NCBI GenBank assembly: GCA_023853785.1
Contig: JAJIRX010000512.1
Span: 124,001 to 188,000, forward strand
DNA: 64,000 nucleotides
Direction of reading: 5' to 3'
From: Psilocybe azurescens
Lineage: Eukaryota; Basidiomycota; Agaricomycetes; Agaricales; Agrocybaceae
Of this stretch, positions 14,515 through 58,702 are shown in pieces (the first letter of the stretch is position 1; each line of letters begins with the position of its first letter). The position numbers and the translations under genes are program-made. The notes beneath the pieces were generated by a model that was not told the DNA's origin, ran no database searches, and saw only the letters and a list, made by a program, of their open reading frames with translations.

Positions 14515-16486
14515 TCGTTATCAAAATTTGAACACCGCTCGAACAATGTGAGAATTAATGCGAACTGCACGTCGTTCTTCCTCAACCAAACGCACGTGCT
14601 CTTAGCGACGTCTAAGTTCTCCTTGTATAATTTCAATCCTCTTGATTCCCAAACTATGTAATATCCAATCTAGTTAATGACCAAGTTGTGGCTGTAGGAA
14701 GATCACCGATTCATATGCATTTTACAACGTGGACCCCTATGAGCAAACTGGTGCATTCCGGTGCTGGTGCGTTCATTTTACCTTGGTTGTCGTGTCATCT
14801 AGCAGACTTCCGATAGTCCATGGTAGCTGGATCGCCCAATTACATCCATCCGACCTCAATTGGCAGTATCATTTACCTCCACTTCACCGCGCTTTCGACA
14901 ATCGCCGTCATTATTCAAACTGTTCAACAACTCTTTTCACCCATATCTTCGTTCTTCACCATATATGGCTTCTACTACTTGAGTTCGAAGAGTCATACTA
15001 GTCATGACGTGCAGGCGGAGGAGGAATTGACAACGAACCACCGTGCATTTGTGCTCCCTCCCATCCCTTGTCCTTTCAAATGCACATTCTCTCACGTGGC
15101 TGGAGGTATCGTCCACACGATTAGAATCAGGCAGAAGAATCATCCTTAACCCAGTCATTCAACACTTATTTCTACCAGAGCTCACTCCCCCCTTTCCCCT
15201 GCATGAATTTTCCGCGGGCGTCATCTAACCTGGCTTGGCAGTTGCATCTGAACGTCCCGGCACCCTTCCCCCAATACTGTCCAAAGTGTGTGGATGGTCG
15301 GTATTCGGTGTCTCTGTCTTTCGTGATGGGCATGAACTGAACTTCGATGTCGTCAGCCGTGGGACGGGAATCAAGCTGGGCTATATGTTGAGTGTGGCGA
15401 ATGGGATTTGTCTTGGATAATCGGAAGAGCTTTGGCGCGTATGTCCCTTATTTTCAACAATATTAAGCGACGTTGAGGCACATATACCGACATTGTGACG
15501 CAGAGTATCAATTTCCTTCTTTCTGTACTCATGCCCGTCTCGCCCTGCGCAGCGTCCGACAGATGCTGCATGGAAGGTGACGTCGGAACACTCATTTCCT
15601 CATATTCGTACCGTCATCTACTACATCTACGGCGCCGATTACGCTTTGACTTGACGTGAGATAATGAATTTGATAAAGGAAAATAGACAAACGGTGACGT
15701 CTTGAAAATTGTCCTGGTGGCCTCGTGTATTCTTTCCACTGGAAGCTATTTAAGCCTCACAGGCAGTTGAAATGATCCTATTTTGGGAATCGTGCGGCGG
15801 ATGTCCTGTGATAGGCAATTGATAGGCGTCTATCAGCGTTCGCGATCTCATCTTGAGATACTTGTCTGTCTGTCACTGCTTTGTCACCACCCTTCGCGCT
15901 CGGGTCCAGGCGCTTATGTCGATCACCCCAGAAACCGCAATGTGGGCTGAATCCAGTTGTCCAATGAGATGCCGTATCTAAACTTGTCCCGCCCAAGTAT
16001 CCACACATTGCCAATGCATTAGACAGCAGTAATGAGCGCCTACCTCTAAACGGGACATTCCGAACCACAAGTCTCTGTTACCCCTTTTCCTCTCCTGCAA
16101 CATACGCTGATGGGCGCCTGTATCCGTCTACTCACATTCCTACACGACTTTATGTATACAGTATAAAATTTATGAGGCCTAGTTTCACACCACTGACGAC
16201 ATACCCGATAATCGCCATAACGCAACCCTTATGTTTCTTGTATCTATCACTGTCGCCGTCCACAGAGCTATATGAATAAAAGAATGCTTCTGTAGCCTGA
16301 TCTCCCCGGAAAATCGCATGCTCCCTCCCACTGCTCGAGGAACGGATGTCCTGTGGTGTTCTTTTCTATCCAGAACGAACCAAGTTAAATGTGCGATGAG
16401 AATTGAGCGAGAAACGTTCATGAGATTGTCTGGACCTGTGTAATAACAGCAATCGAAGTCAACAGGAGTTTGTCCTTTCCGGCATG
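14515..16486. repeat. Inverted repeat, left outer arm (diverged)
   Basis: This stretch is the reverse complement of roughly 20704-23365, with substitutions and indels (about 80% similar by eye). Anchors include GCATTTTACAACGTGGAC at 14719 with its complement near 23160, TTCAACAACTCTTTTCACC near 14920 with its complement near 22900, and the block around 15781 with its complement around 21350. Reading frames here (for example 14820-15149 plus, 15778-16068 minus, 16185-16604 minus) are not conserved as frames between the arms, so I do not call genes. Confidence 0.85.
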
Positions 16487-17125
16487 TTTTCCCACTTGAA
16501 GCTTCTGCAAATTCACATTGCACGGTATTTTCTGAGTCCGTGGCACACAATTTCGAATAAGTGATTATATTTAGCTGACTGGTATTCCTGACATGTGAAG
16601 CCAATTCAGAATGGAAGGGACGACAAGCATGACTACTATGAAGTCATACATTCATCAATATGATTCTTAACTGACTATAGTGACGGCCGTGAACTTCGCG
16701 TGAACTTGAGAAGAGAGACGATGAGACATCCTATTCGTGTGGCTTGAGGCCCGAGCTTGGTCACTCTCGCAACCGTGCTAACAGGAACCTGCAATCGACA
16801 GTCACATGGTGAGAATAATATGAACCAGTCGAAGTTTAGATCTGTGACAGGGGCAACCAAGGACTTTATGTGTACACAAGCCAACCGGCGTGTAGATCTA
16901 TTAGCAGTGAGCATCATAAAATAATATGAGTTCTGGGAAGAAAGCTAGAGTGTGCAATTTTTGGATACAAGCTTCGTCGAAAATGTACACAGGCGTTTCT
17001 AGCTGCCGGATATTTTTAATAGATCTGTCAAGTTCACCCAACCGTCGAAATTCGGAGTATTTTTAAGCACAAATGTTACACAGAAAACAGTTCAAAGAAA
17101 TTCAGATATGCCAAGGGGGCCGCAG

Positions 17126-17132
17126 TATATAA
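17126..17132 (+). promoter_or_regulatory. TATA box of secreted protein gene, copy 1
   Basis: TATATAA lies 106 bp before the ATG at 17232, followed by a leader containing TCTTCAGTTCACTGAATC. It is identical in the mirrored copy. Confidence 0.5.
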
Positions 17133-17231
17133 GCTCAAGTCGACCGTCACTTATCTTCAGTTCACTGAATCATTCTAAGGACTGTCCCAAAGACAAAGAA
17201 AATTTTCAAAGCAAATTATCGCATAACGACA

Positions 17232-17776
17232 ATGTTTTCCAAGGCCGTCTTCACCAATGTACTCGCAGTGGTCGCAATGATTACCATTGCAAGTGCTATA
17301 CCCACCTCCAATGTCTTCGGGGAAAGAGCAGCAGTGCGTTGATTTTTTCCCCAACTTTATCATGACTTTCAACTAAATACACTCGATTATAACAGAGTGC
17401 CACTCCGAACGTGGAGGTGTGTACTGGGAACATCGGGACAGGATGCGTGAACATCCCTGTCGGCTCCGACGCCTGCATCAACTTCACTGGCGGGCTCAGC
17501 TTCCTCGACAAGGAATCGTCAGCCGTTGTTGTCCCAGGTGGTTTTGTTTGCAGTTTCTTCGCGTACGTGCCTATTTCTTTGTCGCCTTATAGAGCATGTT
17601 GGTCTGATACTAAGATTTGAAATTTAAGTGACGCCGGTTGCTTGGCTCCTCAAGGGGGCGCGGGCCAGGTGGTCTTGCAAGGTGGATCTTGGAGCTTCCT
17701 GTCGCCGGTGCCTGGAACCGCTGGGAATGTCAACTTTAACGACCAAGCAAGCTCATTCAGCTGCAGCCCAGTTTAG
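17232..17776 (+). CDS. Small Cys-rich secreted protein, 138 aa, copy 1
   Basis: Exons are 17232-17333, 17396-17562 and 17629-17776 (417 nt, stop TAG). The introns are GTGCGT..AACAG (62 bp) and GTACGT..TTAAG (66 bp). Residues 1-22 form a signal peptide (MFSKAVFTNVLAVVAMITIA). The mature part has six cysteines in the patterns VCTGN-n3-GCVN, DACINF, VCSFFADAGC and FSCSP, with Gly/Ser-rich strands between them. The spacing is reminiscent of fungal secreted proteins with a beta/gamma-crystallin-like fold, but this is a resemblance and not an assignment. The protein should be extracellular and disulphide-bonded. The start is set by the first ATG after the TATA box and by the signal peptide. An identical gene lies in the opposite arm, transcribed toward this one. 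Confidence 0.8.
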
Positions 17777-18000
17777 TTTCGTGTTGTACTTTTGTTAAGT
17801 GTGGTATTGAAGGACCTACGAGCAGATTTATAAGAAATATAACACCGATGTTTAGTTTGAAGGCACCAGTAGCCAGTATTCATTACGATCAGCTTTATTA
17901 TGCAATGGTTTCTCTGATCAGAATTCGTGCATTATGGTCCAGAATGTCGGAGTAGTGAACATCAACGCATGACCTCGGTTCACCGCTTCAAGCAGCTATA

Positions 18001-19189
18001 ATGCTAACTACATCTACTAAATGAACTCGTACATTAGGGTCCTGAACGTCAGAATAGTGGACATCATGCATGACCCCAACGAGTTAAGGCACTTACAGAG
18101 ATTTTAGATTAAATGACTTGATAACTTCGTAAATAAGGAAGGAGAAGCCTGGAATCGAGCTGTATATACCCTTGATATGTGATTTGGGAATTATTTCTGC
18201 CACAATGACCAAACTTCGAGACGAGGACTCAATAGTTAAGGTATATATATATGTATTCCAACTTGAATTAGCAACTGGACTTGAATACAAATTCAGGAAA
18301 CCCAACAGAAGTGTATTAGCCATTCGACAGCGGAAAGTATAATGGCAAGATGGTTGCATGGATGACAGGCTGCTCCGTGCTGAGACTCCGGACAGAGCGT
18401 CGTCATCAGAAAAATACCATACGAAACATATGTTAGGACCAAATGGACGTATTTTTGACGAGTTATTGTCCCCGACATATCTGTGAGTGTTATCCACATC
18501 TCGAAAAAGTGGTACTCATAGAATTAGATCCTGCAGATCGAGGTAGAAAAAACAGACGTGAGCAGAGACATTCTTTCCAGCGTACACACCTTCGGAATAA
18601 ACCAGTCGATGCACCACTGTCCTACGAACATCCTCGTACCCATTTACTAATAAATCGACGTCTTCGCATCTCCCTGGAACCTTATATACAGAGGTCTGTA
18701 TCCACTCCCAAACACGAATCTCCAACAAGGGATCCATCCATTATGAGTTCATCCTGCCACTCGGATATGGCCCTATCGCTATGGCGTTAGCAAGTGCATC
18801 CTACTTTGTCGTTGGACACTGCAACTGTAGCGTCGGGGCAATAAATACACAAATGACCCATATATCGTATTCTTTAACTGTAACTCTGGATGTTGACCTG
18901 TTGACTTACAATATGAACAACGACTTTCTATCGCCGTTATTCTGTGCCTATGTCACCTCTGTTTAAATTGTTCTTGTAAAACAAAAACGCACCATCGTTA
19001 ACGGATGTTGATGCTAATTTTCATGATAGATAACTAGTACTATGGTCCAATAGCAAGTCCTGATCTCACAGGCTTTGCTCCGTTCTTTGTGCACTACGGA
19101 AAAGTCGCGTCTGGAAACTATCAGATATTCAGTGCCATTACCAAAGTATTCGTCCATCCGAAACTTCATCTTGCAAATGTAATTTCCGT
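18001..19189. other. Spacer between the arms of the inverted repeat
   Basis: The spacer is about 1.19 kb and non-palindromic. Its first 80 bases contain a diverged copy of 17929-17978 (GTGCATTATGGTCC versus GTACATTAGGGTCC, then AGTAGTGAACATC versus AATAGTGGACATC). At 19037-19189 a plus-strand frame reads like real protein (YYGPIASPDLTGFAPFFVHY, then VFVHPKLHLANV) but stops being coding where the right arm begins. It may be a gene remnant cut by formation of the repeat. Two longer frames (18093-18497 minus and 18443-18790 plus) overlap each other and are not supported. Confidence 0.6.
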
Positions 19190-19413
19190 TATAGCTGCTT
19201 GAAGCGGTGAACCGAGGTCATGCGTTGATGTTCACTACTCCGACATTCTGGACCATAATGCACGAATTCTGATCAGAGAAACCATTGCATAATAAAGCTG
19301 ATCGTAATGAATACTGGCTACTGGTGCCTTCAAACTAAACATCGGTGTTATATTTCTTATAAATCTGCTCGTAGGTCCTTCAATACCACACTTAACAAAA
19401 GTACAACACGAAA

Positions 19414-19958
19414 CTAAACTGGGCTGCAGCTGAATGAGCTTGCTTGGTCGTTAAAGTTGACATTCCCAGCGGTTCCAGGCACCGGCGACAGGAAGCTCCA
19501 AGATCCACCTTGCAAGACCACCTGGCCCGCGCCCCCTTGAGGAGCCAAGCAACCGGCGTCACTTAAATTTCAAATCTTAGTATCAGACCAACATGCTCTA
19601 TAAGGCGACAAAGAAATAGGCACGTACGCGAAGAAACTGCAAACAAAACCACCTGGGACAACAACGGCTGACGATTCCTTGTCGAGGAAGCTGAGCCCGC
19701 CAGTGAAGTTGATGCAGGCGTCGGAGCCGACAGGGATGTTCACGCATCCTGTCCCGATGTTCCCAGTACACACCTCCACGTTCGGAGTGGCACTCTGTTA
19801 TAATCGAGTGTATTTAGTTGAAAGTCATGATAAAGTTGGGGAAAAAATCAACGCACTGCTGCTCTTTCCCCGAAGACATTGGAGGTGGGTATAGCACTTG
19901 CAATGGTAATCATTGCGACCACTGCGAGTACATTGGTGAAGACGGCCTTGGAAAACAT
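19414..19958 (-). CDS. Small Cys-rich secreted protein, 138 aa, copy 2
   Basis: Mirror exons are 19857-19958, 19628-19794 and 19414-19561 on the minus strand, identical to the copy at 17232-17776 in exons, introns and flanks. The protein has the same signal peptide and six-cysteine mature region. The two genes converge on the 1.2-kb spacer. With complete identity over the gene and its promoter, both copies should be expressed alike if each is functional. An assembly artefact would also produce this picture. Confidence 0.78.
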
Positions 19959-20057
19959 TGTCGTTATGCGATAATTTGCTTTGAAAATTTTCTTTGTCTT
20001 TGGGACAGTCCTTAGAATGATTCAGTGAACTGAAGATAAGTGACGGTCGACTTGAGC

Positions 20058-20064
20058 TTATATA
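20058..20064 (-). promoter_or_regulatory. TATA box of secreted protein gene, copy 2
   Basis: This is the mirror image of the TATATAA at 17126-17132, 100 bp upstream of the start codon at 19958. Confidence 0.5.
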
Positions 20065-20703
20065 CTGCGGCCCCCTTGGCATATCTGAATTTCTTTGAAC
20101 TGTTTTCTGTGTAACATTTGTGCTTAAAAATACTCCGAATTTCGACGGTTGGGTGAACTTGACAGATCTATTAAAAATATCCGGCAGCTAGAAACGCCTG
20201 TGTACATTTTCGACGAAGCTTGTATCCAAAAATTGCACACTCTAGCTTTCTTCCCAGAACTCATATTATTTTATGATGCTCACTGCTAATAGATCTACAC
20301 GCCGGTTGGCTTGTGTACACATAAAGTCCTTGGTTGCCCCTGTCACAGATCTAAACTTCGACTGGTTCATATTATTCTCACCATGTGACTGTCGATTGCA
20401 GGTTCCTGTTAGCACGGTTGCGAGAGTGACCAAGCTCGGGCCTCAAGCCACACGAATAGGATGTCTCATCGTCTCTCTTCTCAAGTTCACGCGAAGTTCA
20501 CGGCCGTCACTATAGTCAGTTAAGAATCATATTGATGAATGTATGACTTCATAGTAGTCATGCTTGTCGTCCCTTCCATTCTGAATTGGCTTCACATGTC
20601 AGGAATACCAGTCAGCTAAATATAATCACTTATTCGAAATTGTGTGCCACGGACTCAGAAAATACCGTGCAATGTGAATTTGCAGAAGCTTCAAGTGGGA
20701 AAA

Positions 20704-23365
20704 CACGTCGGAAAGGACAAACTCCTGTTGCCTTGGATAGCTGTTATTACACAGGTCTGGAAAATCTCATCAATGTTTCTCGCTCAATTCTCATCCCACT
20801 TTTAACTTGGTTCGTTCTGGATAGAAAAACAGAATACAAGGAATTCCGTTCCCACGAGCGGTGAGAGCATGCGATCTTCCGAGGAGATCCGGCTACAGAG
20901 GTCTTCTTTTATCCATACAGTTCTGTGGAAGGCGATAATGATAGATGCAAGAAATGTAAGGGTTTCTCATCAGTACTGTGAAACCAGGCGCCATAAATTT
21001 TATATTATATACATAAAGTAGTGTAGGAACGTGAGGAGAGGGATATAGGCGCCTAACAGCATGTGTTGCAACAGAGAAGGGGTAACAGATTCTTGTGGTT
21101 GGGAATGTCCCATTTAGACGTAGGCGTTCATTCCTGCTGTCTAGTATGTTGGCGATGCGTATATAAATATGCGGACCCAATTTAGATACAGCCCACACTG
21201 CGGTTTCTGGGGTGCCCGACATAAGCGCCTGGAACCGAACGCGACGTTCGCTGACAAAGCAGTGACAGACCATGAGACATTATCTCGAGATGAAGATCGC
21301 CAACGCCGATAGACGCCTATCGATTGCCTATCACAGGACATCCGTCGCACGATTCCCAAAATAGCATCATTTCAGCTGCCTGTGAAGCCTTAAATATCTT
21401 CCAGTCTCACGAATATACGAGGCCATCAGAACAATTTTCAAGACGTCACCGTTTGTCTATTTTCTTTTATCAAATTCATTATCTCACGTCAAGTCATGGG
21501 ACATTGGGGTATGCACACACTCTCGTAAATTTCGACCCATGAACTAGGTTCTGTGTGGTTATCACTCGTCTTTTCAAAGGTCCAATCGTAATGTAACGGT
21601 CCAAAAACCTCTTGGAACCAGCGCACTTTCGTAGCATCATCATCGAATTAAACTGCATTTATCAACAATTCTTACGTTTGTTACATTGTATGCTGTTCTT
21701 CTCAGTGCACTTTCGAAAGAAGATATGTATTCGGGAAATTTTCTGTACGTCTCTCACCCCTCCAGCTGTGCGAACTTGAGCCTCGTTCTGGCTGTGTTGA
21801 TCCTGTTCGAATTCAACATTGGCCTCAGCCTAGTCGATCAACTTGTTGTGTCAGTCTCGGTAAAGAATTCGGTAACAGCTAATGAATCAAACTCGATGAA
21901 TCTGCAATGCTTAAACTATCCAGTCTAGACGTTGTTTCTGATTAGAATGATTTTCTATCGCTCGGAAAAATGAACTGTACCTATTACTTCGTAAGATGCG
22001 CAGCCGTGTAACGTTACTGAAATGCGAGAAGTAAGCCTTAAGCTAATCCTGATAAAAGAAACTCACCGAGGTCAAAACAGAGCTGTGAATATGGGGGACA
22101 GTGGACGTGGCGGTGGAGTGGAAAGGTGGATGTTGGTATGGGTGTCGATGAAGTAGGCGGATGTGGAAAGAGATGCAAGAGATGGTCATTCAGGTGACGG
22201 AGGCGACGGAGGCGTAATCGGCGCTGTAGATGAAGTAGATGGCGGTATGAATACGAGAAAATGCGTGTCCCGACGCCACCTCCCATGCAGATGCAGCATC
22301 TTTCGGAAGCTGCGCGGGTGAGATGGACATGAGTAGAGAAAGAAGGAAATTGAGTATCTGCATAGAAATGTCCATATATGCGCTTCAACGTCGCTTGATA
22401 TACGTGAAAACAGAAGAGAAACGCACCAAAGTTCTTCGGACTGTCCAGAATACATCTCACTTGTGACATTCGACAAATAGCCAAAGCCCGACCCCCGTCG
22501 TACGGCTGACGACATTGAAGTTAAGTTCATGCTCGTCTCGAAAGACGGAGATACTGCATACCGAACTTGCACAGACCTAGGACTGTATTGACGGAGGGAG
22601 TCGGTGCTGCTGCTAACCGCGTTTAGATCACGCGCGGGTCAACGTCATGCACGAGAAAAGGGGGAGTGAGCTGTGGTAGAAATGAGTATTGAATGACGAG
22701 GTTAAGGCAAATTATTCTGTCTGATGATTCTAATCGTGTGGATGATACCTCCAGCCACGTGAGAAAATGTGCATTTGAAAGGACAAGGGATGGGAGGAAG
22801 CGAAAACACACGGTGGTTCATCAATTCCGCCTCTGCCTGCAAGTCACGACTCTTCGCATTCAAGTAGTAGAAGTTATATATGGTGAAGAGTAAAAAATAG
22901 CGGTGAAAAGAGTTGTTGAGGAGTTCGAATCATGACAGCGATGGTCGAAAGCGTGGTGAAGCGGAAGGGAAACGATGCTGCCCTTCGAGGTCGAGTGAAG
23001 TAATCGGACGATCCGGAGGACATGGCCCATTAGAATTCAGTTGGATGTCACTAATGTATCTGAAAGTTGAACCAGGTTCAGCCACAAACGACACGACAAC
23101 CAAGGTAAAACGAACGCACCGGCACTACAATGCTCCGGTCTGCTCAGAACGGTCCACGTTGTAAAATGCATAGGAATCGGTGATCGTCTTTCAGTAACAA
23201 TGCGGTTATTCACTAGGTTGAATATCACACTCTTTGGGAATCTTGAAGATTAGCATTAAGCGAGAGGAACTTGGACGCAGGTAAGAGTACTTTGGGTCGA
23301 GGAAGGACGACGTGGAGTTCGCATTACTCCGAACATCGTTCGAGCGGAGCTTAAATTCTGATGTG
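20704..23365. repeat. Inverted repeat, right outer arm (diverged)
   Basis: This is the reverse complement of about 14515-16486 at roughly 80% similarity, and longer than its partner because of insertions (for example around 21440-22300). Similarity fades near 23365, where AAGCTCCGCTCGAACGATG still matches ACACCGCTCGAACAATG at about 14535. No frame is shared intact between the arms; 22038-22484 minus (148 codons) is rich in His/Leu/Arg and looks non-coding. Confidence 0.8.
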
Positions 23366-24569: not shown

Positions 24570-27110
24570 AGTAGCAGGAGTGGGAGTTTGGATCAAGAAA
24601 AGCAGAGAGCATGGGCCAAGAGAGAACGCTCATTCCTGCTGAAGTACTAATCAGTCACCCGGACGGGACAAGTTTGGCCTGTCATAAACCTGAAGAGCCA
24701 AACGTGGAGGAGAGGAGGAAGTATTTAGAAGTGGGAAAACCGAGGACGCCTGAGTAAACCTGTTTGGAATAAGAATAGCGTAAGGAAGGGGAATACGAGT
24801 GTGAGTTTGCCGTTGCACGTTTGTAAGGACGCAAGGAGCAGGATGATGCCAAATCTAAAGCTGGCTCCGTCTCAATGATTACGCCGATATACATGGTTAA
24901 TGGTGCGCCTATGTACAGTCGAACTTTTCATAACTCATACCTGTCGCCGTCGGTTAACAGTCCAGGGAATGGGCTGACGGAGACAGGCTAAAAATAGGTT
25001 CGGCAATTGCAAAATTATCAGAATCATGGATAATGGGTTGCATTTCCCTGCAAATGAAGTCCATGGATCGAAAAACCTATGGGGTATAAGGAGATATGGG
25101 TACCACTGGTGTGGATTATTGCAAATTCGACTGTAGTTCTAACACGTTTCTTACGATACTCTCCTCACGGCGGTCTTATCAGAATACCACGACATTACAT
25201 CGAGGCGATAGTAATCATTCTGCTGGAATCTTGCATGTACTAATTTACAATGCACTACAGCTACCCAATATGTTATTTAGAATAGTTATTTCTCTCTTTG
25301 GAATTATTGAGTTCCAAAACCTTAAATCTCCGCCGTGGTTACTGTAACAGTGGAAAAAGGTGATTGAGCTGAGGATTCGAATCCAGGAACTGCCAAGCTA
25401 TACTCTATGATGTAGAACATAATTGAGTTTTTATGTCACTTTTGGTGCCACGTGAGGACGACGGCAGTTGATCGAAAACTCGGGATAAAATCAATTTGCA
25501 TTGAAAGGGCGGTGACGGTGGTTACTTACTAGCTAGCCGCTAGAATATAATTTCGAACTTTTGACGGAAGCTTAAAATAGTTTCGCCATTCTGTAGCATA
25601 CACCAAGTTCCTCGGCTCCTTCTTTCCCCTGCTCGAAGCGAACCACTATCTGTGTGTCCTCCATTACTCCTGTCTCTGTGCAGCGCCATTCGAATTGTCA
25701 TTTAGACAATATTCATCTAGCAATATTGCATTAATCCATGATTCCGTTACAAAATTACATATCCTGGAAAGGTCCGCCGTCTCTAACTGCCATATTTCGA
25801 ACACTGACACGTTGTTAGTATCAATGTCCATTCTTCACGGCATCGCCATCTCCTCAACATGTCTGCGCCTTGAGAACCGACGTAGAGCTCGACGCCTATG
25901 GTGGGACGACTATACTACCGTTATTCCAGCCATTACCGATTGTCTAAACATCGCCATGCTATGGTTGCGTCTGAGGAATAAAACAAGTAAGGGTTCCTCT
26001 GGCTTTGATGCGACGTGGACCATAGCTTTCTGATGCATGAGCTCTTAGTGTCCAGAGAAGAAAGAGCGCTATTCAGTTACTTTGGCTCCGCTTTCTTTGC
26101 GACGATTAATTGGTATGTGAAGTAATGGGTCATCAATCACTACTCCTATTGTCTGACCCACACATTTATAGGTGGTCTCGAATTAGCCTAGCCCTTGCGG
26201 TTGTTCGGATCACACCCACTTGGTCAAGATCACGACGACTTGCTACTGGCATGACCATTGCGTTTTTTGTTTTTGGGTTGCGCTCTTGGTCGGGATGATA
26301 GTGAAATGCGCTGTCCACACCGAGTGGCAGTTGGTCCATTCTCAAATTCTCATCTGTGGGCCAGCCTCTCGAGTGGCAATTGCTAATACAGTTTGTGAGC
26401 TATTACGGCCTTGCAGTTTCTGTGATCGACTAGTTCTAATTGGACTTACATGGGGCAGTGGACGTGATTAGCGATATCGCACTGATCGCAATACCCCTGC
26501 ATCAATTATGGGACATCAATCTTCCTGTGAACGAGCGTCTTCGGGTACGGCTGGTATTCTCTGCTAGCTCAATAACCTTAATCTCGTCTATTGTGCTCTG
26601 TACTGTCTTATATGGTGGATATATCATTGGACCCGGCGCTCTTGTGGTATGGATGATGGCATGTCGAGCTGAAGCGAGTTACTCTTTTTACGTCTACATC
26701 CACAAACTAGAACACTGATTCATTTAATCAAGGAAGCTGTATGTATAATCACATCCAATCTCCTTGTGCTGGTTTGCTGGTTTCTCCACCGCATTTCAAA
26801 TGACCAGAGAGAAATTGATGCCGGTGATGTTCATATTACACCTCATTGGAGTCATCCGGAACCCGTGAGCAAAAGATCTACGCCCATTTCTCTTGTCGGC
26901 TTGCCCCTATCAGCTCTGGAAGTGGCAGGTATGCAAAAACAGATAATTTATCTTCGGGTTGTAGTGGAGAAACAGAACACGACATTTGATAATTTATGTC
27001 TTCGTTGTATTTCTGGACGTTGTTATATAGCACCTATAAACAGCCTAAATGTCCAGGCTATATATGTTATCAATGGATTTCTTTTCTGATGGACACATTT
27101 TTGTTCTCCA
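24570..27110. repeat. Segmental direct duplication, copy 1
   Basis: This aligns collinearly with about 34690-37380. Matching blocks include AGTGGGAGTTTGG, GGAGAGGAGGAAGTATTTAG, GGCGATAGTAATCATTCTGC, and the whole rhodopsin-like gene (about 90-95% in coding parts, lower outside). The same two segments are each followed by fragments of RPN6. Confidence 0.88.
25824..27089 (+). pseudogene. Rhodopsin-like integral membrane protein, copy 1, frameshifted
   Basis: Exons start at ATG 25824 (MSILHGIAISSTCLRLENRR, then WWDDYTTVIP). They continue with REERALFSYFGSAFFATINW, ISLALAVVRITP, and after an intron starting GTGAGC with LDVISDIALIAIPLHQLWDI, RLVFSASSITLISSI and ITSNLLVLVCWFL. The order of hydrophobic segments and the motifs WWDD, D-n3-D-n5-P and LVFSASS match the fungal rhodopsin-like (PTH11-related) seven-helix family common in Agaricomycetes. 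The frame breaks at the run GCG-TTTTTT-GTTTTTGGG (about 26260-26275): six T are present where seven would keep the downstream frame. Everything after reads well in the shifted frame, so the lesion is recent or a sequencing error. The family has no proven ligand. Confidence 0.7.
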
Positions 27111-34689: not shown

Positions 34690-37380
34690 AAAGAGGGACG
34701 GGAGTGGGAGTTTGGGGAAGAGAAGCAGGGTGCAAAGTTCGAGAGAGTGTGCTCGTTCTTGCTGAAGCAAACCCGACCAGTTACCTGGATGGAATAAGTT
34801 TGGATTATCAGAAACCTGAAGAGCTAAATGTGAAGGAGAGGAGGAAGTATTTAGGAGTGGGCAGGCCGAGGATGCCTGAGTAGGCCTGTTTGAGATAAGA
34901 ATGGAATAAGGAAGGGGAATATGAGCGTGAGTTTGCCGTTGCACTTTTTAAGGACCCGAGGAGCAATACAATGTCAAATATAAACCTAGATCTGGCTCAA
35001 TGATTACGTCGATATGCATGGTTAACGGTGCATCTATGTGCAGTCAAACTTGTCATAACCCATATCCGTCGCCATCGGTAAACAGTAAAAATAGGTTCAG
35101 AATTTCAAAATTGAACTCTTAAATAAATGTACATAGAACTCAGCATGCCAAAATGTCTGAGACATTGGTCAAAATTTACCAAAAATGGCAGTACGCTGAT
35201 CCCAAAACTTATGGATTTTTCTTCCAAAAGGGTATGGGTTATGAGTTGCATTTTCTTGCAAACTTGTTCGTGGATCGAAAACCTACGGGGTGTAAGAAGT
35301 TATGGGGTACCACTGGTGTGAATTATTGCAAATTCGACTATATTTCTAACATATTTCTTACGATGCTCTCCTCACGACAGTCTTATCAGAATATCACGAT
35401 ACGACACCGAGGCGATAGTAATCATTCTGCACGTATTAATTTACCACGCACTACAGCTACTCAATACGTTATTTGGAATAGTTATTTCCCTCTTTGGAAT
35501 TGTTCAGTTTCAAAAGCCTAAATCTCCGCCGTGGTTACTGTAATAGTGGGAAAAGGTGACTGAACTGGGGATTCGAGTCCAGGAACTGCTGCACTGCATG
35601 ACGTAGAACTGAATGAAGTTTTTACGTCACTTTTGGTGCCATGTGAGGACGACGGCAGTCGATCGAAAACTCAGGACAAAATTAATTTACATTGAACGGG
35701 CGGTGACGGTGGTTACTAACTAGCTAGACGATAGAATATAACTTTGAACTTTTAATGGAAGCTTAAAGTGGTTTCGCCGTTCCCTCATTCCCCTGCTCGA
35801 AGCGCACCACTATCTGTGCATCCTCCATTACGCCTGTCTGTGTGCAGCGTCACTCGGATTGTCATTTAGACAATACTCATCCAGTCATATTGAATTGATC
35901 CATGATTCCGTTACAAAATTACCTGTTCTGGAAAGGTCGACCATCTCCACTTGCCATGTTTCGAACGCTGACACGTTGTTAGTATTTATGTCCATTCTTC
36001 ATGTCATCGCCATCTCCTCAACATGTCTGCGCCTTGAGAACCGACGTAGAACTCAACGCCTATGGTGGGACGACTATACTACCGTTATTCCAGCTATTAC
36101 CGATTGCCTAGACATCACCATGTTGTGGTTGCGTCTGAGAGACAAACCAAGTAAGTGTTCCTCTGGCTGAGATCCGAAATGAACCATGATGTTCTAATGT
36201 ATAAATTCTTAGTTCCCAGAGAAGAAAAAGTGTTATTCACTTACTTTGGTGCCGCTTTCTTTACCACAATTAATTGGTATGTGAAGTAACGAGTCATCAA
36301 TCGCTACTCCTATTGTCTGACCCATTCATACCCCACATTTATAGGTGGTCTCGAATCAGCTCAGCCCTTGCGGTTGTTCGGATCACACCCGATTGGTCAA
36401 GATCACGGCGACTTGCTATTGGCATGACCATTGCGTTTTTTTTGTTTTTGGGTCGCGCTCTTGGTCGGGATGATAGTGACATGCACTGTCCACACCGAGT
36501 GGCAGTTTGCTCATTCCCAATTCCTCGTCTGTGGACCAGCCAGTCGAATGATAATTGGAAATACAATTTGTGAGTTGTTACGGCTCTGCAGTTTGTTTGA
36601 TAGACTAGTTCTAATTAGGATTACATGGGGCAGTGGATGTGATTAGCGATATCGCACTGATCACAATACCCCTGCATCAATTATGGGACATCAATCTTCC
36701 TGCGAACGAGCGTCTTCGGGTACGGCTGGTATTCTCTGCTAGCTCAATAACCTTAATCTCGTCTATTGCGCTCTGTACCGTCTCATATGGTGGATATATC
36801 GTTGGACCTGGCGCTCTTGTGGTATGGATGATGGCATATCGAGCGGAAGCGAGTTACTCTTTTTAGGTCTACAGACACAAACTAGAACACTGATTCATTT
36901 AATCAAGGAAGCCGTATGTATAATCACATCCAATCTCCTTGTTCTGGTTTGCTGGTTTCTCCGCCACGTTTCAAAAGACAAAGGCGAAATTGATGCCGGC
37001 GATATTCATATTACACCTCATTGGAGTCGTCAGGAACCCGTAATCAACAAATCTATGCCATCCGTTTCTCTTGTCAGCCAGTCTCTATCAGCTCTGGAAG
37101 CGGCAGTTGTGCAAAAAACAGGTGGTTCGTCGTAGTGGAGAAACAGGAAGCCATATTACTACCTATATATTATCAAGATGTCCCCATTTCGTATGTACAT
37201 ATTTGTTCTGTTCCTCTTATTTACGAACGCCAATTAGGATCTTTCTCTTTTGTCTTTAACCGTCTAAATTTTCAATGTGTTTATGAGCTGCCGTAGCGTT
37301 ATCGAGGCGCGGCTTTATATATATATGTGTTATCCATAGATTTCTTTTGTGAAGGATACATTTTTGATCCCCGAACTCCA
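34690..37380. repeat. Segmental direct duplication, copy 2
   Basis: This is collinear with 24570-27110, about 10.1 kb downstream in the same orientation. It includes the rhodopsin-like gene and its upstream DNA, in which GGCGATAGTAATCATTCTGC is shared. Small insertions and deletions are scattered outside the exons. Confidence 0.88.
35988..37135 (+). pseudogene. Rhodopsin-like integral membrane protein, copy 2, frameshifted
   Basis: The exon plan is the same as in copy 1: start MSILHVIAISSTCLRL at 35988, then WWDDYTTVIP, EEKVLFTYFGAAFFTTINW, ISSALAVVRITP, LDVISDIALITIPLHQLW and RLVFSASSITLISSIALC. The same homopolymer (about 36436-36443) carries eight T here, against the seven needed to keep the frame and six in copy 1. 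The exons on both sides remain free of stops. Copy 2 also has TAG after EASYSF, which may lie within an intron. The product is a presumed seven-helix membrane protein of unknown ligand. Confidence 0.68.
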
Positions 37381-52563: not shown

Positions 52564-52738
52564 CTACCAACACCATTCAACACCTGTACCCTCAATCATA
52601 ATTCATCGAATCCAATTTTTTTTTCATTCTGGGACACTTTTATGATCCCCGTCGATGGCCCTACGCAGCCCGACGTATATATATATTTTATGGGACACAT
52701 TTATGATCCCTGTCGATGGTTCTATGCGACCCGACATA

Positions 52739-54341
52739 CAGTAGCTCAAAAAACTGTCCCAATGTTTGGCACTTTCTCACTAATTGTTTAATAACTTGGG
52801 AAATAAATTATGTAAAAGTCTGAAAATATTATATGTTATAGTTTAACATGTGACTAACATATGTCTCACCAAGGTCACATGATTTTAACAAAAACTGATT
52901 AAGTAATGGAATTTACAAAATAATAGAGCATTGGGACAGTTTTTGACTCTCTATCTAGTACTTAGTATGGCCTCCCTTTGCCTTGATAACAGCCTCCATT
53001 CTCCTTGGCATGCTTTCTATAAGCCTTTGGCATGTTTATGAAGGTATTTCAGTCCATTCCTTTGCCAATCTCTCCCACAATTCAAATGCTCCTTTGGGTG
53101 GTGTCTCATAGGTGTTCATTTGCCTTTTGAGGTAAACCCAAAGGTGTTCAATGGGGTTGAGAGCAGGGGATTGGGGTGGCCACTCCATAACTTCAACATC
53201 ATTGGCCAAAAACCATTCTTGAGCTTTTTTTGGAGGTGTGTTTGGGGTCATTATCCTGCTGAAAAATCCTTTTCCCCTCTGCCATCTCCAAGTTGTCAAA
53301 GCTTTCATCCACCCCATGCTCCAAAATTTCACAGTATTGGTCTGCATTCATCTTCCCCTCAACCTCAGTGAGTGTTCCAACACCATTCCACCCCATACAA
53401 CCGGATACCATGAGATTGTTGCCCCCTCCATGCTTGACAGTTGGTGATGTTGTTCTATCTGAGATTGCTTCACCCTTGGGTTTCCATGTATAGACCCTTC
53501 CATCTGAGCCAATCCTGTTTATTTTTGTTTCATCTGACCAGAGTACTCTTTTCCAATCCTCCACAGTCCAGCCAACATGATTCTGGGCAAATTTTAGGCA
53601 TTTTTGACAGTGGATAGCCTTGAGGAGGGGCCATTTTGATTTAACAACAGAGCCGGAAGTTGTTTTCTTTGAGGGCATTTCTGACTGTTTGGGCACAAAC
53701 AGGAGAGGGAATAGCATCATTGATGAAGTGTGTTGCCTGGACAGCATTGTCCAGCTTTCCTGTTTTGATTTGACGAAAAGGACCTGTTTATCCTTGGGAG
53801 TAAGCTTGGAGGAACGTCCACCTTTGTTGTTTTGGGGGTTTCTTTGTTGGCATCCACTTCCCTCTTGATTCTTCCAACAGTAGACTTTCCCAAACCAGTT
53901 TTAGACTCTATTTGACAAAGAGAATAGCCCTCTTCAAGAAGATTGAGGACAGAATTGTACTGAGAAGGTGTTGCAGGCTTCATGATGTGGTGGTTAAAGA
54001 GAAAGATGGTTGAACTTGAATTCAACATTGCAAATGTGTACAAATAGTGTCACATGACCTTGTTTAATTTTCTCACAATTTATACAAAGCAATTTGGCTT
54101 TCTACAAGCATGTAAAGCTATTATTTTATAGGGTCAAAAAACTGTCCCAATGTTTTATTATTTTGTAAATTCCATTACTTAATCAGTTTTTGTTAAAATC
54201 ATGTGATCTTTGTGAAAAATATGTTAGTCACATGTTAAACTATAACATATAATATTTTCAGACTTTTACATAATTTATTTCCCAAGTTATTAAACAATTA
54301 GTGAGAAAGTGCCAAACATTGGGACGGTTTTTGAGCTACTG
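52739..54341 (-). mobile_element. Tc1-type DNA transposon, 1,603 bp
   Basis: Long terminal inverted repeats (over 200 bp, outermost CAGTAGCTCAAAAACTG-type) run inward from 52739 and 54341. Both ends share words such as AACTGTCCCAATGTTTGGCA (inverted, GGACGGTTTTTGAGCTACTG on the right). TA dinucleotides at 52737-52738 and 54342-54343 are the expected target duplication. The transposase reads on the minus strand and is broken into frames. Confidence 0.92.
53036..54043 (-). pseudogene. Tc1 transposase (DD34E) with frame breaks
   Basis: The N-terminal part (54043 downward) has MKPATPSQYNSVLNLLEEGY and IESKTGLGKSTVGRIKRE, a paired-type helix-turn-helix. The catalytic core has WSDET, then QQDNDPKHT, and 34 residues on the glutamate of NPIEHLW, i.e. 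DD34E. The core frame changes near 53225 (after DNDPKHT) and more than once between about 53620 and 53830, where a TAA (in CTCTGTTGTTAA) also interrupts one frame. A working enzyme is therefore not encoded here. Ends and spacing are otherwise complete, so mobilisation by a relative remains possible. Confidence 0.88.
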
Positions 54342-54773
54342 TACATGGGACACTTTTATGATCCCGTCGATGGTTCTACGCAACCCGACATTTTTATGGG
54401 ACACTTTTATGATCCTTATATGATGGTTCTTTACAACCGACTTATACTTCATGGGACACCCTTTATGATCCTTGTTAATGGTTACACGCAACCAGATGTG
54501 TTATTTTACGAGAATTGTTCTGTGATCTCCGTCAAGACAACACTTCATTATTTGGCACATGCACACCTTTATTATACGCTGCCACCTTCACTGCGATGCA
54601 TCTACATCATGATTCATGAGCGTCTTCTCTATGTCATCAAATCATCGGGATACATTTATCAATCCGCTGAAATATTAAACAAGACATTATTCACTTATGA
54701 TTCAATATAAACAGATTACAACCGGGACATTCTCACTCGCAATATTTCAAAATCACAAACACCAATTCCTCGT

Positions 54774-57478: not shown

Positions 57479-58702
57479 ATGCGCTCACTCTTGTTTACCT
57501 CGATTGACTCCTTTAACCCACTAAATCCATTATCCCCACGTGAAAGCAAAGTCTCTACATACACCTTACACAAACCTGCAACAGCAGAAGACACAAACAA
57601 AATCTGTGACCCTCTCGACAACCAGCAATCAAAATCAACCAAAATGCAAATGGCCACGCCGTTCACACCCCCTTTTGCCCCACACCTTACACGAGCAACG
57701 ACAACTCATCATTTCTCAAAGAAGGCAAGAGACTCACTTAAACGTGCACTATCAAACAGCTGGGCTCCTTCAACTCTTAGCAAATATTCCAATGCCATTG
57801 ACCATTTCATAACCTTTTGCGATTTGGAAAAAGTACCAGAACACCTACGTTTTCCAACAGATGAATTTGTTTTATGTGCCTTCGCCGCCTCTGGAGTTGG
57901 CACATCCTCACATTCCACCATTTGCAACAAAATCTCAGCTGTCAAGGCCTGGCACCATACCCACGGCATCGAATGGAATGGTGGCTCTCGCCTTCGTTTA
58001 GTACTCAATGGTGTCAAAAACCTTACTCCCTTATCTTCCATACGCCCACCACGCCCACCAATTAATGCTCGTATGCTTGCACAACTCATTAAAGGACTAG
58101 ATCTCAATAATGCATTAGACTCAGCCATAGCAGCTTGTGCAGCTATCGCTTTCTGGGGGCAATGCCGCTTAGGAGAACTCCTAGCCTCATCCTCCTCCAG
58201 TGTCCTCTCTACAAATTCCATCCCTTCACGACGGTCCTTACGTCAGTCAAAACGCAACACACACTCCTATATCCTGGCTTTACCGCAAACCAAAACCAAA
58301 AAGCGAGGTGAAGACGTCATCCTAACACAACAAACCAATAACTCTGATCCTCTGCAACTGCTCCGAAACCACATGCTGATCAACAAACTACCTCAACGTC
58401 TACCACTTTTTGCATATACAACACGCTCCGGACCAAAAACACTCACCAAACGTCATTTTATCACTCGTTGCAACGCCATCTGGAAAACTCATGGTTACCC
58501 AAGAACAACAGGTCACAGTTTCCGAATAGGAGGTACAACCGAGCTACTCCTCGCTGGTGTCCCACCTGACGTTGTCAAGACCTTGGGTCGCTGGTCTTCA
58601 GACTCTTTCCTTCGCTATTGGCGCTCTCCGGAAGACATAGCACCTCAATACACTCAGAATGTCCCCAATTCCCGAAAACGAAAACGATCCTTATCCATGT
58701 AG
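57479..58702 (+). CDS. Tyrosine recombinase of the DIRS-like element, 407 aa
   Basis: A single open frame from ATG 57479 to TAG. The N-terminal core-binding region (about residues 80-180) has SNSWAPSTLSKYSNAIDHFI. The catalytic domain carries Arg230 (FWGQCRLGELL), Lys in LPQTKTKKRG (about 270), His346 and Arg349 (TTGHSFRIGG), Trp372 and the nucleophile Tyr380 (SFLRYWR): the full R-K-H-R-W-Y set. It ends with the basic tail RKRKRSL. The enzyme would insert circular element DNA without a target duplication. Start choice is uncertain because the first 60 residues look low-complexity; an internal Met at 56 or 58 is possible. It is the only fully intact ORF of the element. Confidence 0.88.
   Translation: MRSLLFTSIDSFNPLNPLSPRESKVSTYTLHKPATAEDTNKICDPLDNQQSKSTKMQMATPFTPPFAPHLTRATTTHHFSKKARDSLKRALSNSWAPSTLSKYSNAIDHFITFCDLEKVPEHLRFPTDEFVLCAFAASGVGTSSHSTICNKISAVKAWHHTHGIEWNGGSRLRLVLNGVKNLTPLSSIRPPRPPINARMLAQLIKGLDLNNALDSAIAACAAIAFWGQCRLGELLASSSSSVLSTNSIPSRRSLRQSKRNTHSYILALPQTKTKKRGEDVILTQQTNNSDPLQLLRNHMLINKLPQRLPLFAYTTRSGPKTLTKRHFITRCNAIWKTHGYPRTTGHSFRIGGTTELLLAGVPPDVVKTLGRWSSDSFLRYWRSPEDIAPQYTQNVPNSRKRKRSLSM

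Follow-up and report, generated by a model that had tools for sequence, protein, structure and literature searches.

The window analyzed here, a stretch of 64,000 nucleotides from a contig of the 70 Mb Psilocybe azurescens genome, harbors a gene-carrying imperfect palindrome (14520-23362, arms pairing as x to 37190-x) with an identical core and diverged outer arms. This arrangement was very probably generated by recent gene conversion within the palindrome, acting on an old inverted duplication.

The left side of the palindrome is composed of a diverged outer arm (14520..16484, + strand) and a core arm (16485..18001, + strand), the right side of a core arm that is the reverse complement of the left core (19189..20705, - strand) and a second diverged outer arm (20706..23362, - strand), with an unstranded spacer of 1,187 bp (18002..19188) between them. 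Alignment of the arms revealed no difference between the cores at any of 1,517 positions (16485-18001 versus 20705-19189), which confirms the predicted identity of the inner arms over an interval slightly wider than the proposed 16487-18000/19190-20703. The identical positions constitute 1,517 of the approximately 3.4 kb of aligned arm. Outside the core the arms remain homologous out to 14520/23362, with 1,573 of 1,851 aligned positions matching (85.0%) and identities of 72 to 94% across 100-bp bins; the original prediction had given a divergence of about 20% plus indels. As anticipated, identity changed at a sharp break instead of declining smoothly, since 10 mismatches in 16400-16484 were followed by none from position 16485 onwards. 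Inward, arm homology stops at the spacer except for about 24 poorly matching bases. The outer arms differ by small indels as well as by one unstranded block of about 713 bp (~21497-22211), which is present only in the right arm. A related palindrome contains this block in both arms on contigs C439 and C926 and, on C927, in the right arm, the left arm sequence examined there not reaching as far out. The simplest interpretation therefore is that the block was lost from the left arm here.

The core carries one complete gene, in agreement with the original prediction. The left copy (17232..17776, + strand; exons 17232-17333, 17396-17562 and 17629-17776, stop included) and its mirror copy on the right (19414..19958, - strand; exons 19958-19857, 19794-19628 and 19561-19414) contain two introns and encode identical proteins of 138 amino acids with six cysteines and no CC pair. 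That purifying selection holds the two copies identical has next to no probability, even though the gene here exhibits a dN/dS of 0.09-0.10 relative to the two copies on C439 and dN/dS is low between close copies. Identity between the cores extends to roughly 1.1 kb of non-coding tract sequence comprising the upstream region (745/745), both introns (62/62 and 66/66) and the 3' flank (198/198). Comparison of this palindrome to the related one, by contrast, gave a difference of 11-13% in the upstream and 3' parts; selection on the protein therefore cannot explain the identity of the core.

An assembly or polishing artefact, in which a single merged sequence of two similar but not identical cores was used at both positions, is improbable. 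The analysis was based on the assembled sequence, the gene is frameshifted on some contigs, and C154 contains one region twice in opposite orientation, as can arise from joined haplotypes. After splicing by alignment, premature stops were detected in seven of the 20 long copies of the gene in the genome, including four on C926/C927, so that parts of the assembly hold either true pseudogenes or errors that were left uncorrected. Against an artefact, the assembly keeps arms apart at 94-98% identity elsewhere (B439, B926 and B927), the outer arms here are distinct, the spacer is free of N, and the related palindrome on other contigs displays conversion tracts of its own.

This sister palindrome, located on C439, C926 and C927, carries the gene in both arms and in the same register. 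Since the three contigs are collinear, they probably represent haplotypes. A second, recent inverted duplication nested within the older palindrome would likewise yield an identical center and diverged outer arms, and the original prediction had offered such an event as an option. Considering that the sister palindrome already has both genes in the same place and that the arms stay in register where the core ends on its outer side, an arm appears to have been replaced rather than added, and we regard nested duplication as very unlikely. The other option in that prediction, homogenization of the center by gene conversion, is well supported by the core identity including non-coding sequence, by the switch in tree topology and by the tracts in related copies.

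In the tree of the distal arm (14840-15640), the left arm here and those of C439 and C926 formed one group (support 1.000), which included neither the right arm here nor C699 nor the right arms of the sister palindrome. Unlike this distal left/right split, the cores of the two arms here are identical. The longest shared run between them spanned 204 of 594 polymorphic columns compared to at most 31 in 10,000 shuffles, which excludes chance as the source of the core identity. The permutation test is not specific, however, because the orthologous pair A_R/B439_R passed it as well (run of 30, null maximum 22); three other tested pairs gave p values of 0.004-0.03 with runs of 12-16. At sites that split the left and right cores of C926/C927, the core here was left-like at 45, right-like at 32 and neither at 4, leaving the direction of conversion ambiguous. 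Such a mosaic, together with the 20 long copies in the genome, would also fit the overwriting of both cores from a third copy on another haplotype or locus. We give this origin very little credence, as the closest other aligned copy is only 91.3% identical and homogenization within pairs recurs in other inverted pairs.

Homogenization between arms was not confined to the palindrome in the window. Core identity here was 100% between arms versus 91% to the sister palindrome, and the C439 core exhibited 98.3% identity within the palindrome versus 93.9% (left) and 97.5% (right) in the comparison with C926. A separate tract is present on C439 at 15976-16878 (left-arm coordinates; 219 polymorphic columns), within which the C439 left arm is 85-91% identical to that of C926, compared to 95-99% in more distal sequence, and bears right-type letters at 55/70 and 42/45 diagnostic sites. 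Across the whole core, the two arms of C439 grouped together with modest support (71.9/76). The whole cores of C926 and C927 were 93.8 and 94.3% identical within the palindrome and not more alike within than between related loci or haplotypes. The gene and 3' part of C926 were about 98% alike between arms. C926/C927 show only an older, partial homogenization of this part. In C439, C926 and the palindrome here, similarity between arms was higher in the gene-bearing inner part than in the outer part, which may reflect closeness to the spacer or selection on exons. The suggestion that the palindrome serves to maintain a gene pair remains unproven, considering that the long C439 tract lies upstream of the gene and that eight of the long copies reside outside close inverted pairs.

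The spacer is 84-85% identical to that of the sister palindrome and inverted relative to it. Because spacer orientation is opposite in the two palindromes, a crossover between arms is likely to have occurred. In the scenario of recent conversion, the old inverted duplication would have placed arms a few kb in length, both with a gene, tail to tail across the 1.2-kb spacer, and the palindrome would have continued to recombine with itself, a broken arm being repaired from the opposite one. Most of these repairs would overwrite a tract, resulting in gene conversion, and some would lead to a crossover, with inversion of the spacer as the consequence. The identical block, with its outer bound at 16485/20705 and its inner bound at the end of arm homology, would correspond to the latest event, which was presumably too recent for any mutation to have accumulated.

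The divergent pair on C154 is homogenized too, with core parts identical at 1,189/1,190 and 1,197/1,197 positions within each copy and 98.6% identical between copies. Inversion alone does not homogenize, since the members of the inverted pair C102_83/C102_91, which lie on opposite strands at a distance of 6,150 bp, share just 85% identity. The direct pair C102_65/C102_83 grouped together (95.4/96) at 97.1% identity. Many genomic copies begin near the same query base, and a mobile element was thus considered as the origin of the core; this reading was abandoned because the palindrome arms and the sister copies extend past that base, the unit being the gene with its flanks. GC-biased conversion received no support either, with upstream GC (0.39-0.44 across the 20 copies) showing no visible difference between copies in pairs and those outside them.

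Flank, core and arm searches did not reveal an intact allelic palindrome in the assembly. For the right flank, matches at 97-99% were obtained on C699 and C775, limited on C699 to sequence outward of 21995, the position at which a multicopy repeat adjoins. For the left flank, C927 and C304 gave matches at 97%. No palindrome was present in the 6 kb examined beyond the match on C927, and C304 contained no core or arm match.

The 138-amino-acid protein has the appearance of a secreted protein, judging by an N-terminal hydrophobic stretch that looks like a signal peptide by eye. Its predicted structure agrees with the betagamma-crystallin domain fold, which comprises approximately 85-90 residues. 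The calcium motif of betagamma-crystallins is N/D-N/D-X-X-S/T-S; by eye, NDQASS in a conserved stretch near the C terminus agrees with it and LDKESS agrees poorly. The protein had no Pfam family match at E values up to 1, and a sequence search of PDB returned just two chance-level matches (E 0.8-0.9). Four other ORFs in the window gave an integrase match below the Pfam cut-off and nothing else. Several database relatives are labelled hydrophobin. Hydrophobins contain eight cysteines with two CC pairs, and this assignment was rejected for the present protein on the basis of its six cysteines, the lack of a CC pair and the missing Pfam family; none of 32 relatives matched hydrophobin models at E values up to 0.1. 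The label may cover a family resembling betagamma-crystallins. The most closely related proteins come from Psilocybe cyanescens, whose protein P0001 is 98% identical and encoded on a contig of 1,535 bp, the size that would be expected if an identical core had been collapsed by short-read assembly. Secreted-protein families may thus be collapsed in short-read mushroom assemblies. Since the genome has 20 long copies and eight of these lie outside close inverted pairs, the pair here is not the sole source of the protein.

The palindrome provides a compact, well-bounded case of arm-to-arm conversion in a mushroom, in which sister contigs catch different stages and a spacer flip. It makes the length of tracts, the proportion of crossovers and the influence of distance and orientation measurable. 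A broader reading, that close inverted pairs of this duplicating gene form a natural recombination system in the genome with repeated haplotype-specific conversion and spacer-flipping crossovers, tight pairing keeping copies alike while dispersed copies drift, is tentative and unlikely at present, being made less probable by the unhomogenized inverted pair on C102. If it were true, selection for a uniform protein could favor tight inverted over dispersed copies.

Among the titles listed on fungal palindromes with gene conversion, gene pairs and concerted evolution, hsp70, Psilocybe assemblies and crystallin-like secreted proteins, in a collection with few subscription papers, none reported this locus. 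In Cryptococcus, mating-pheromone genes have a divergent inverted arrangement within the mating-type locus (PMC12510652). Parallels are also provided by the Drosophila Hsp70Aa/Ab and Amy-p/Amy-d genes, described as palindromic paralogue pairs with ectopic conversion within the pair and crossing over as an alternative outcome of a break (PMC3924832). The locus here shares with them a mirror-image pair of inverted paralogues separated by a short spacer, paralogues more alike within a locus than between loci or haplotypes (here, C439 and C154) and a homogenized block that spans non-coding DNA and ends sharply inside longer homology. It differs in that the gene encodes a small secreted-type protein of an agaric fungus and that the evidence for the spacer flip and the contig-specific tracts derives from a single assembly. 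Pairs of the Hsp70/Amy type are further marked by silent polymorphisms that the paralogues share in a population. Rozen et al. reportedly described arm-to-arm gene conversion in human and ape Y-chromosome palindromes in 2003. Such palindromes have arms that are near-identical over most of their length and lie in a region without allelic recombination. The proposed likeness to sex-chromosome palindromes holds for arm-to-arm conversion in an inverted repeat with genes but not for near-identity over most of the arm, as the arms here are homogenized only in part, the rest being 85% identical. The palindrome here is also much smaller. It is a clear new example of a process known from Drosophila Hsp70 and Amy and from Y palindromes.

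Self-comparison of the window revealed a single large inverted repeat at 14520-23362, an imperfect palindrome with a 1,187-bp spacer (18002-19188). The original prediction that its inner arms match without a difference while its outer arms have diverged and acquired indels was borne out by arm alignment, in which the core arms (16485-18001 and 19189-20705) were identical at 1,517 of 1,517 positions and the outer arms at 1,573 of 1,851 (85.0%), with a 713-bp block present in the right outer arm only. The sharp change in identity that had likewise been proposed was located as a step at 16484/16485, and the inner end of the identical tract coincides with the point at the spacer where arm homology ends. 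By the rule of three, zero differences in 1,517 bp place the divergence since the last event below about 0.2%.

Three other contigs of the assembly (C439, C926 and C927) bear the same arms and are mutually collinear, with 94-98% identity over the stretches compared. Both C439 and C926 contain the 713-bp block twice, once per arm; in C927, the left arm of which begins at the end of the contig, it is present on the right. No match to the window outside the palindrome was detected within the 10 kb compared of each contig; farther along C927 (14951-17815) the left flank of the window was matched at 97%. We regard the three contigs as haplotypes, or close copies, of a sister palindrome located in the same neighbourhood, rather than as established alleles of the window palindrome. 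The bound of about 0.2% lies below the 1-6% separating their matching cores, the exception being the right cores of C926 and C927 (99.9% identical).

Phylogenetic grouping switched along the arms. In the distal arms (14840-15640), the tree joins the left arm of the window to those of C439 and C926 with a support of 1.000; the window right arm (with contig C699) and the right arms of all three sister contigs fall outside this group. Because the distal arms group left with left and apart from right, the inverted duplication predates the split between the two palindromes. Closer to the core, in the proximal outer arms (15653-16484), the window arms cluster with each other at lower support (0.79 and 0.91), perhaps as the trace of an older exchange. 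Within the core the window arms are identical to each other yet only about 91% identical to every sister copy, and the tract inside the arms was therefore replaced after the split.

The window spacer matched the spacers of all three sister contigs at 84-85% on the opposite strand. Across five 200-bp bins (14831-15646) the distal right arm of the window was more similar to the right arm of C439 (88-95%) than to its left arm (77-85%), a difference that fades toward the core; the window left arm was about equidistant from both C439 arms, its assignment as left coming from the tree. Given the opposite-strand spacer and the outer arms assigned to left and right, the simplest reading is that in one lineage the inner part has been turned round between the outer arms, as an arm-to-arm crossover would bring about. 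Taken together, the results fit an inverted repeat with arms that pair with and repair one another, in most cases by conversion and at times with a crossover. Compared with the left and right cores of C926 and C927, the window core is a mosaic (left-like to right-like 20:7, 13:21, 6:2 and 6:2, from the outside inwards), a sequence pattern that suggests several rounds of exchange; either arm may have been the donor in the last event, since the mosaic does not single one out.

Evidence of homogenisation was also found in other inverted pairs. The left and right arms of C439 share 219 consecutive polymorphic columns (15976-16878, left-arm coordinates) upstream of the start codon (17232), while the longest common run between the C926 arms was 16. 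Within this tract, identity between the left arms of C439 and C926 drops to 85-91% (95-99% further out), and the C439 left arm shows right-type letters at 55 of 70 and 42 of 45 diagnostic sites; overwriting of the left arm by the right is thus the likeliest event. The C926 arms were alike at 666 of 747 positions in the upstream part, 167 of 167 in exon 2, 146 of 147 in exon 3 and 193 of 197 in the 3' flank, the last compared with just 174-175 of 197 between palindromes; to judge from these counts, the gene and its 3' flank read as a case of older, partial homogenisation. The genes on contig C154 point away from each other instead of converging; its inverted arms span 1,342 bp at 99.3% and 1,349 bp at 98.7%, and the core parts match at 100.0 and 99.9% inside the two copies but at 98.6% between them. 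The two 9.9-kb C154 loci (190500-200400 and 87500-97400), about 100 kb apart, match mainly in opposite orientation in pieces of 86-98% identity and are either the halves of one large inverted duplication or a pair of haplotypes that the assembly joined.

The window occupies C440:124001-188000 in the 70.4-Mb assembly (937 contigs), and a search of this assembly with the window core returned at least 26 match rows. Alignment took in the 20 copies 1 kb or longer and excluded six short rows (two on C262, one each on C911 and C300, and two of 54 bp on C154). Close inverted pairs comprised the window pair, one each on C439, C926 and C927 and two on C154, and the other eight copies were located on C102 (four), C560 (three) and C172 (one). 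No inverted repeat longer than 150 bp was present in any of these eight loci (8-10 kb each); the copies C102_83 and C102_91, on opposite strands, are separated by 6,150 bp, a span that none of these loci contains in full. With splicing assigned by alignment, 13 of the 20 copies had open frames and seven contained stops; four of the seven are on C926/C927, where sequencing errors may have been left uncorrected.

Outside close inverted pairs, identity between same-contig copies was 91.7% (C560_45/C560_98), 86.2% (C102_15/C102_65) and 97.1% (C102_65/C102_83). The members of this third pair, which are direct copies, group together in the tree (95.4/96), possibly owing to a recent duplication or to some exchange between them. 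C102_83/C102_91, inverted but farther apart, share 85.1%: at a distance of 6 kb, and between diverged copies, inversion has not brought about homogenisation. A shuffle test gave p = 1e-4 (0 of 10,000) for both pairs interpreted as converted. One orthologous pair (run 30) reached the same value, and three further pairs gave p = 0.004-0.03; run size therefore outweighs the p-value, at 204 (window pair) and 219 (C439) against null maxima of 31 and 42.

Each core arm contains one copy of the gene, which is interrupted by two introns; its 138-residue product has six cysteines and a hydrophobic stretch at the N terminus and is 98% identical to a Psilocybe cyanescens protein (P0001). All 32 database relatives listed carry the names of mushroom genera placed among the agarics, and together with the 98% match these names point to an agaric close to Psilocybe. 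A model of P0001 built on an alignment of 32 sequences predicted a betagamma-crystallin domain fold. Several relatives are labelled hydrophobin, an identity that neither the cysteine number nor Pfam searches support. Comparison of the window gene with both C439 copies gave a dN/dS ratio of 0.09-0.10, and comparison with six less closely related copies gave 0.19-0.52; the low values indicate that the protein is under constraint. P0001 and a second P. cyanescens relative (P0004) are located on contigs of only 1,535 and 1,596 bp, close in size to the homogenised core, which is what the collapse of such repeats in short-read assemblies would produce.

Several features were observed in the surroundings. 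In the near-identical counterpart of the right flank on C699 (9500-16500), the palindrome ends at window position 21995 (about 4395 in that locus) and gives way to a multicopy repeat; the rest may have been lost through an insertion or deletion at this junction. Just right of the window palindrome lies a direct duplication of about 2.4 kb (24577-26942 and 34701-37121, 80-85%), with more direct repeats up to 47 kb, making this area duplication-rich. The window start (1-365) contains an imperfect inverted repeat (about 330 bp, 80%), and another of about 212 bp (52737-54343, 95-96%) lies either side of a minus-strand ORF (53199-53747), a putative mariner-type transposase by eye, with no Pfam match at 0.001. 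A 407-aa ORF (57479-58702) with a weak Phage_integrase match (E 0.0002, below the Pfam cut-off) possibly encodes the tyrosine recombinase of a mobile element.

Among the matches listed for fungal palindromes and conversion, concerted evolution, hsp70, Psilocybe assemblies and crystallin-like secreted proteins, neither this locus nor the gene family was found by title. According to a review of ectopic gene conversion (PMC3924832), the Drosophila Hsp70 and Amy pairs are palindromic in orientation and homogenised by conversion, an arrangement argued there to possibly limit copy-number change. Conversion tracts in clustered Hsp70 genes of a stratiomyid fly are described in PMC3071340, and PMC12510652 proposes conversion for divergent Cryptococcus pheromone genes, which may serve as inverted repeats. 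We class the window palindrome with the Drosophila Hsp70 and Amy pairs, stratiomyid Hsp70 and the Cryptococcus pheromone genes, as a case of a mechanism already known.
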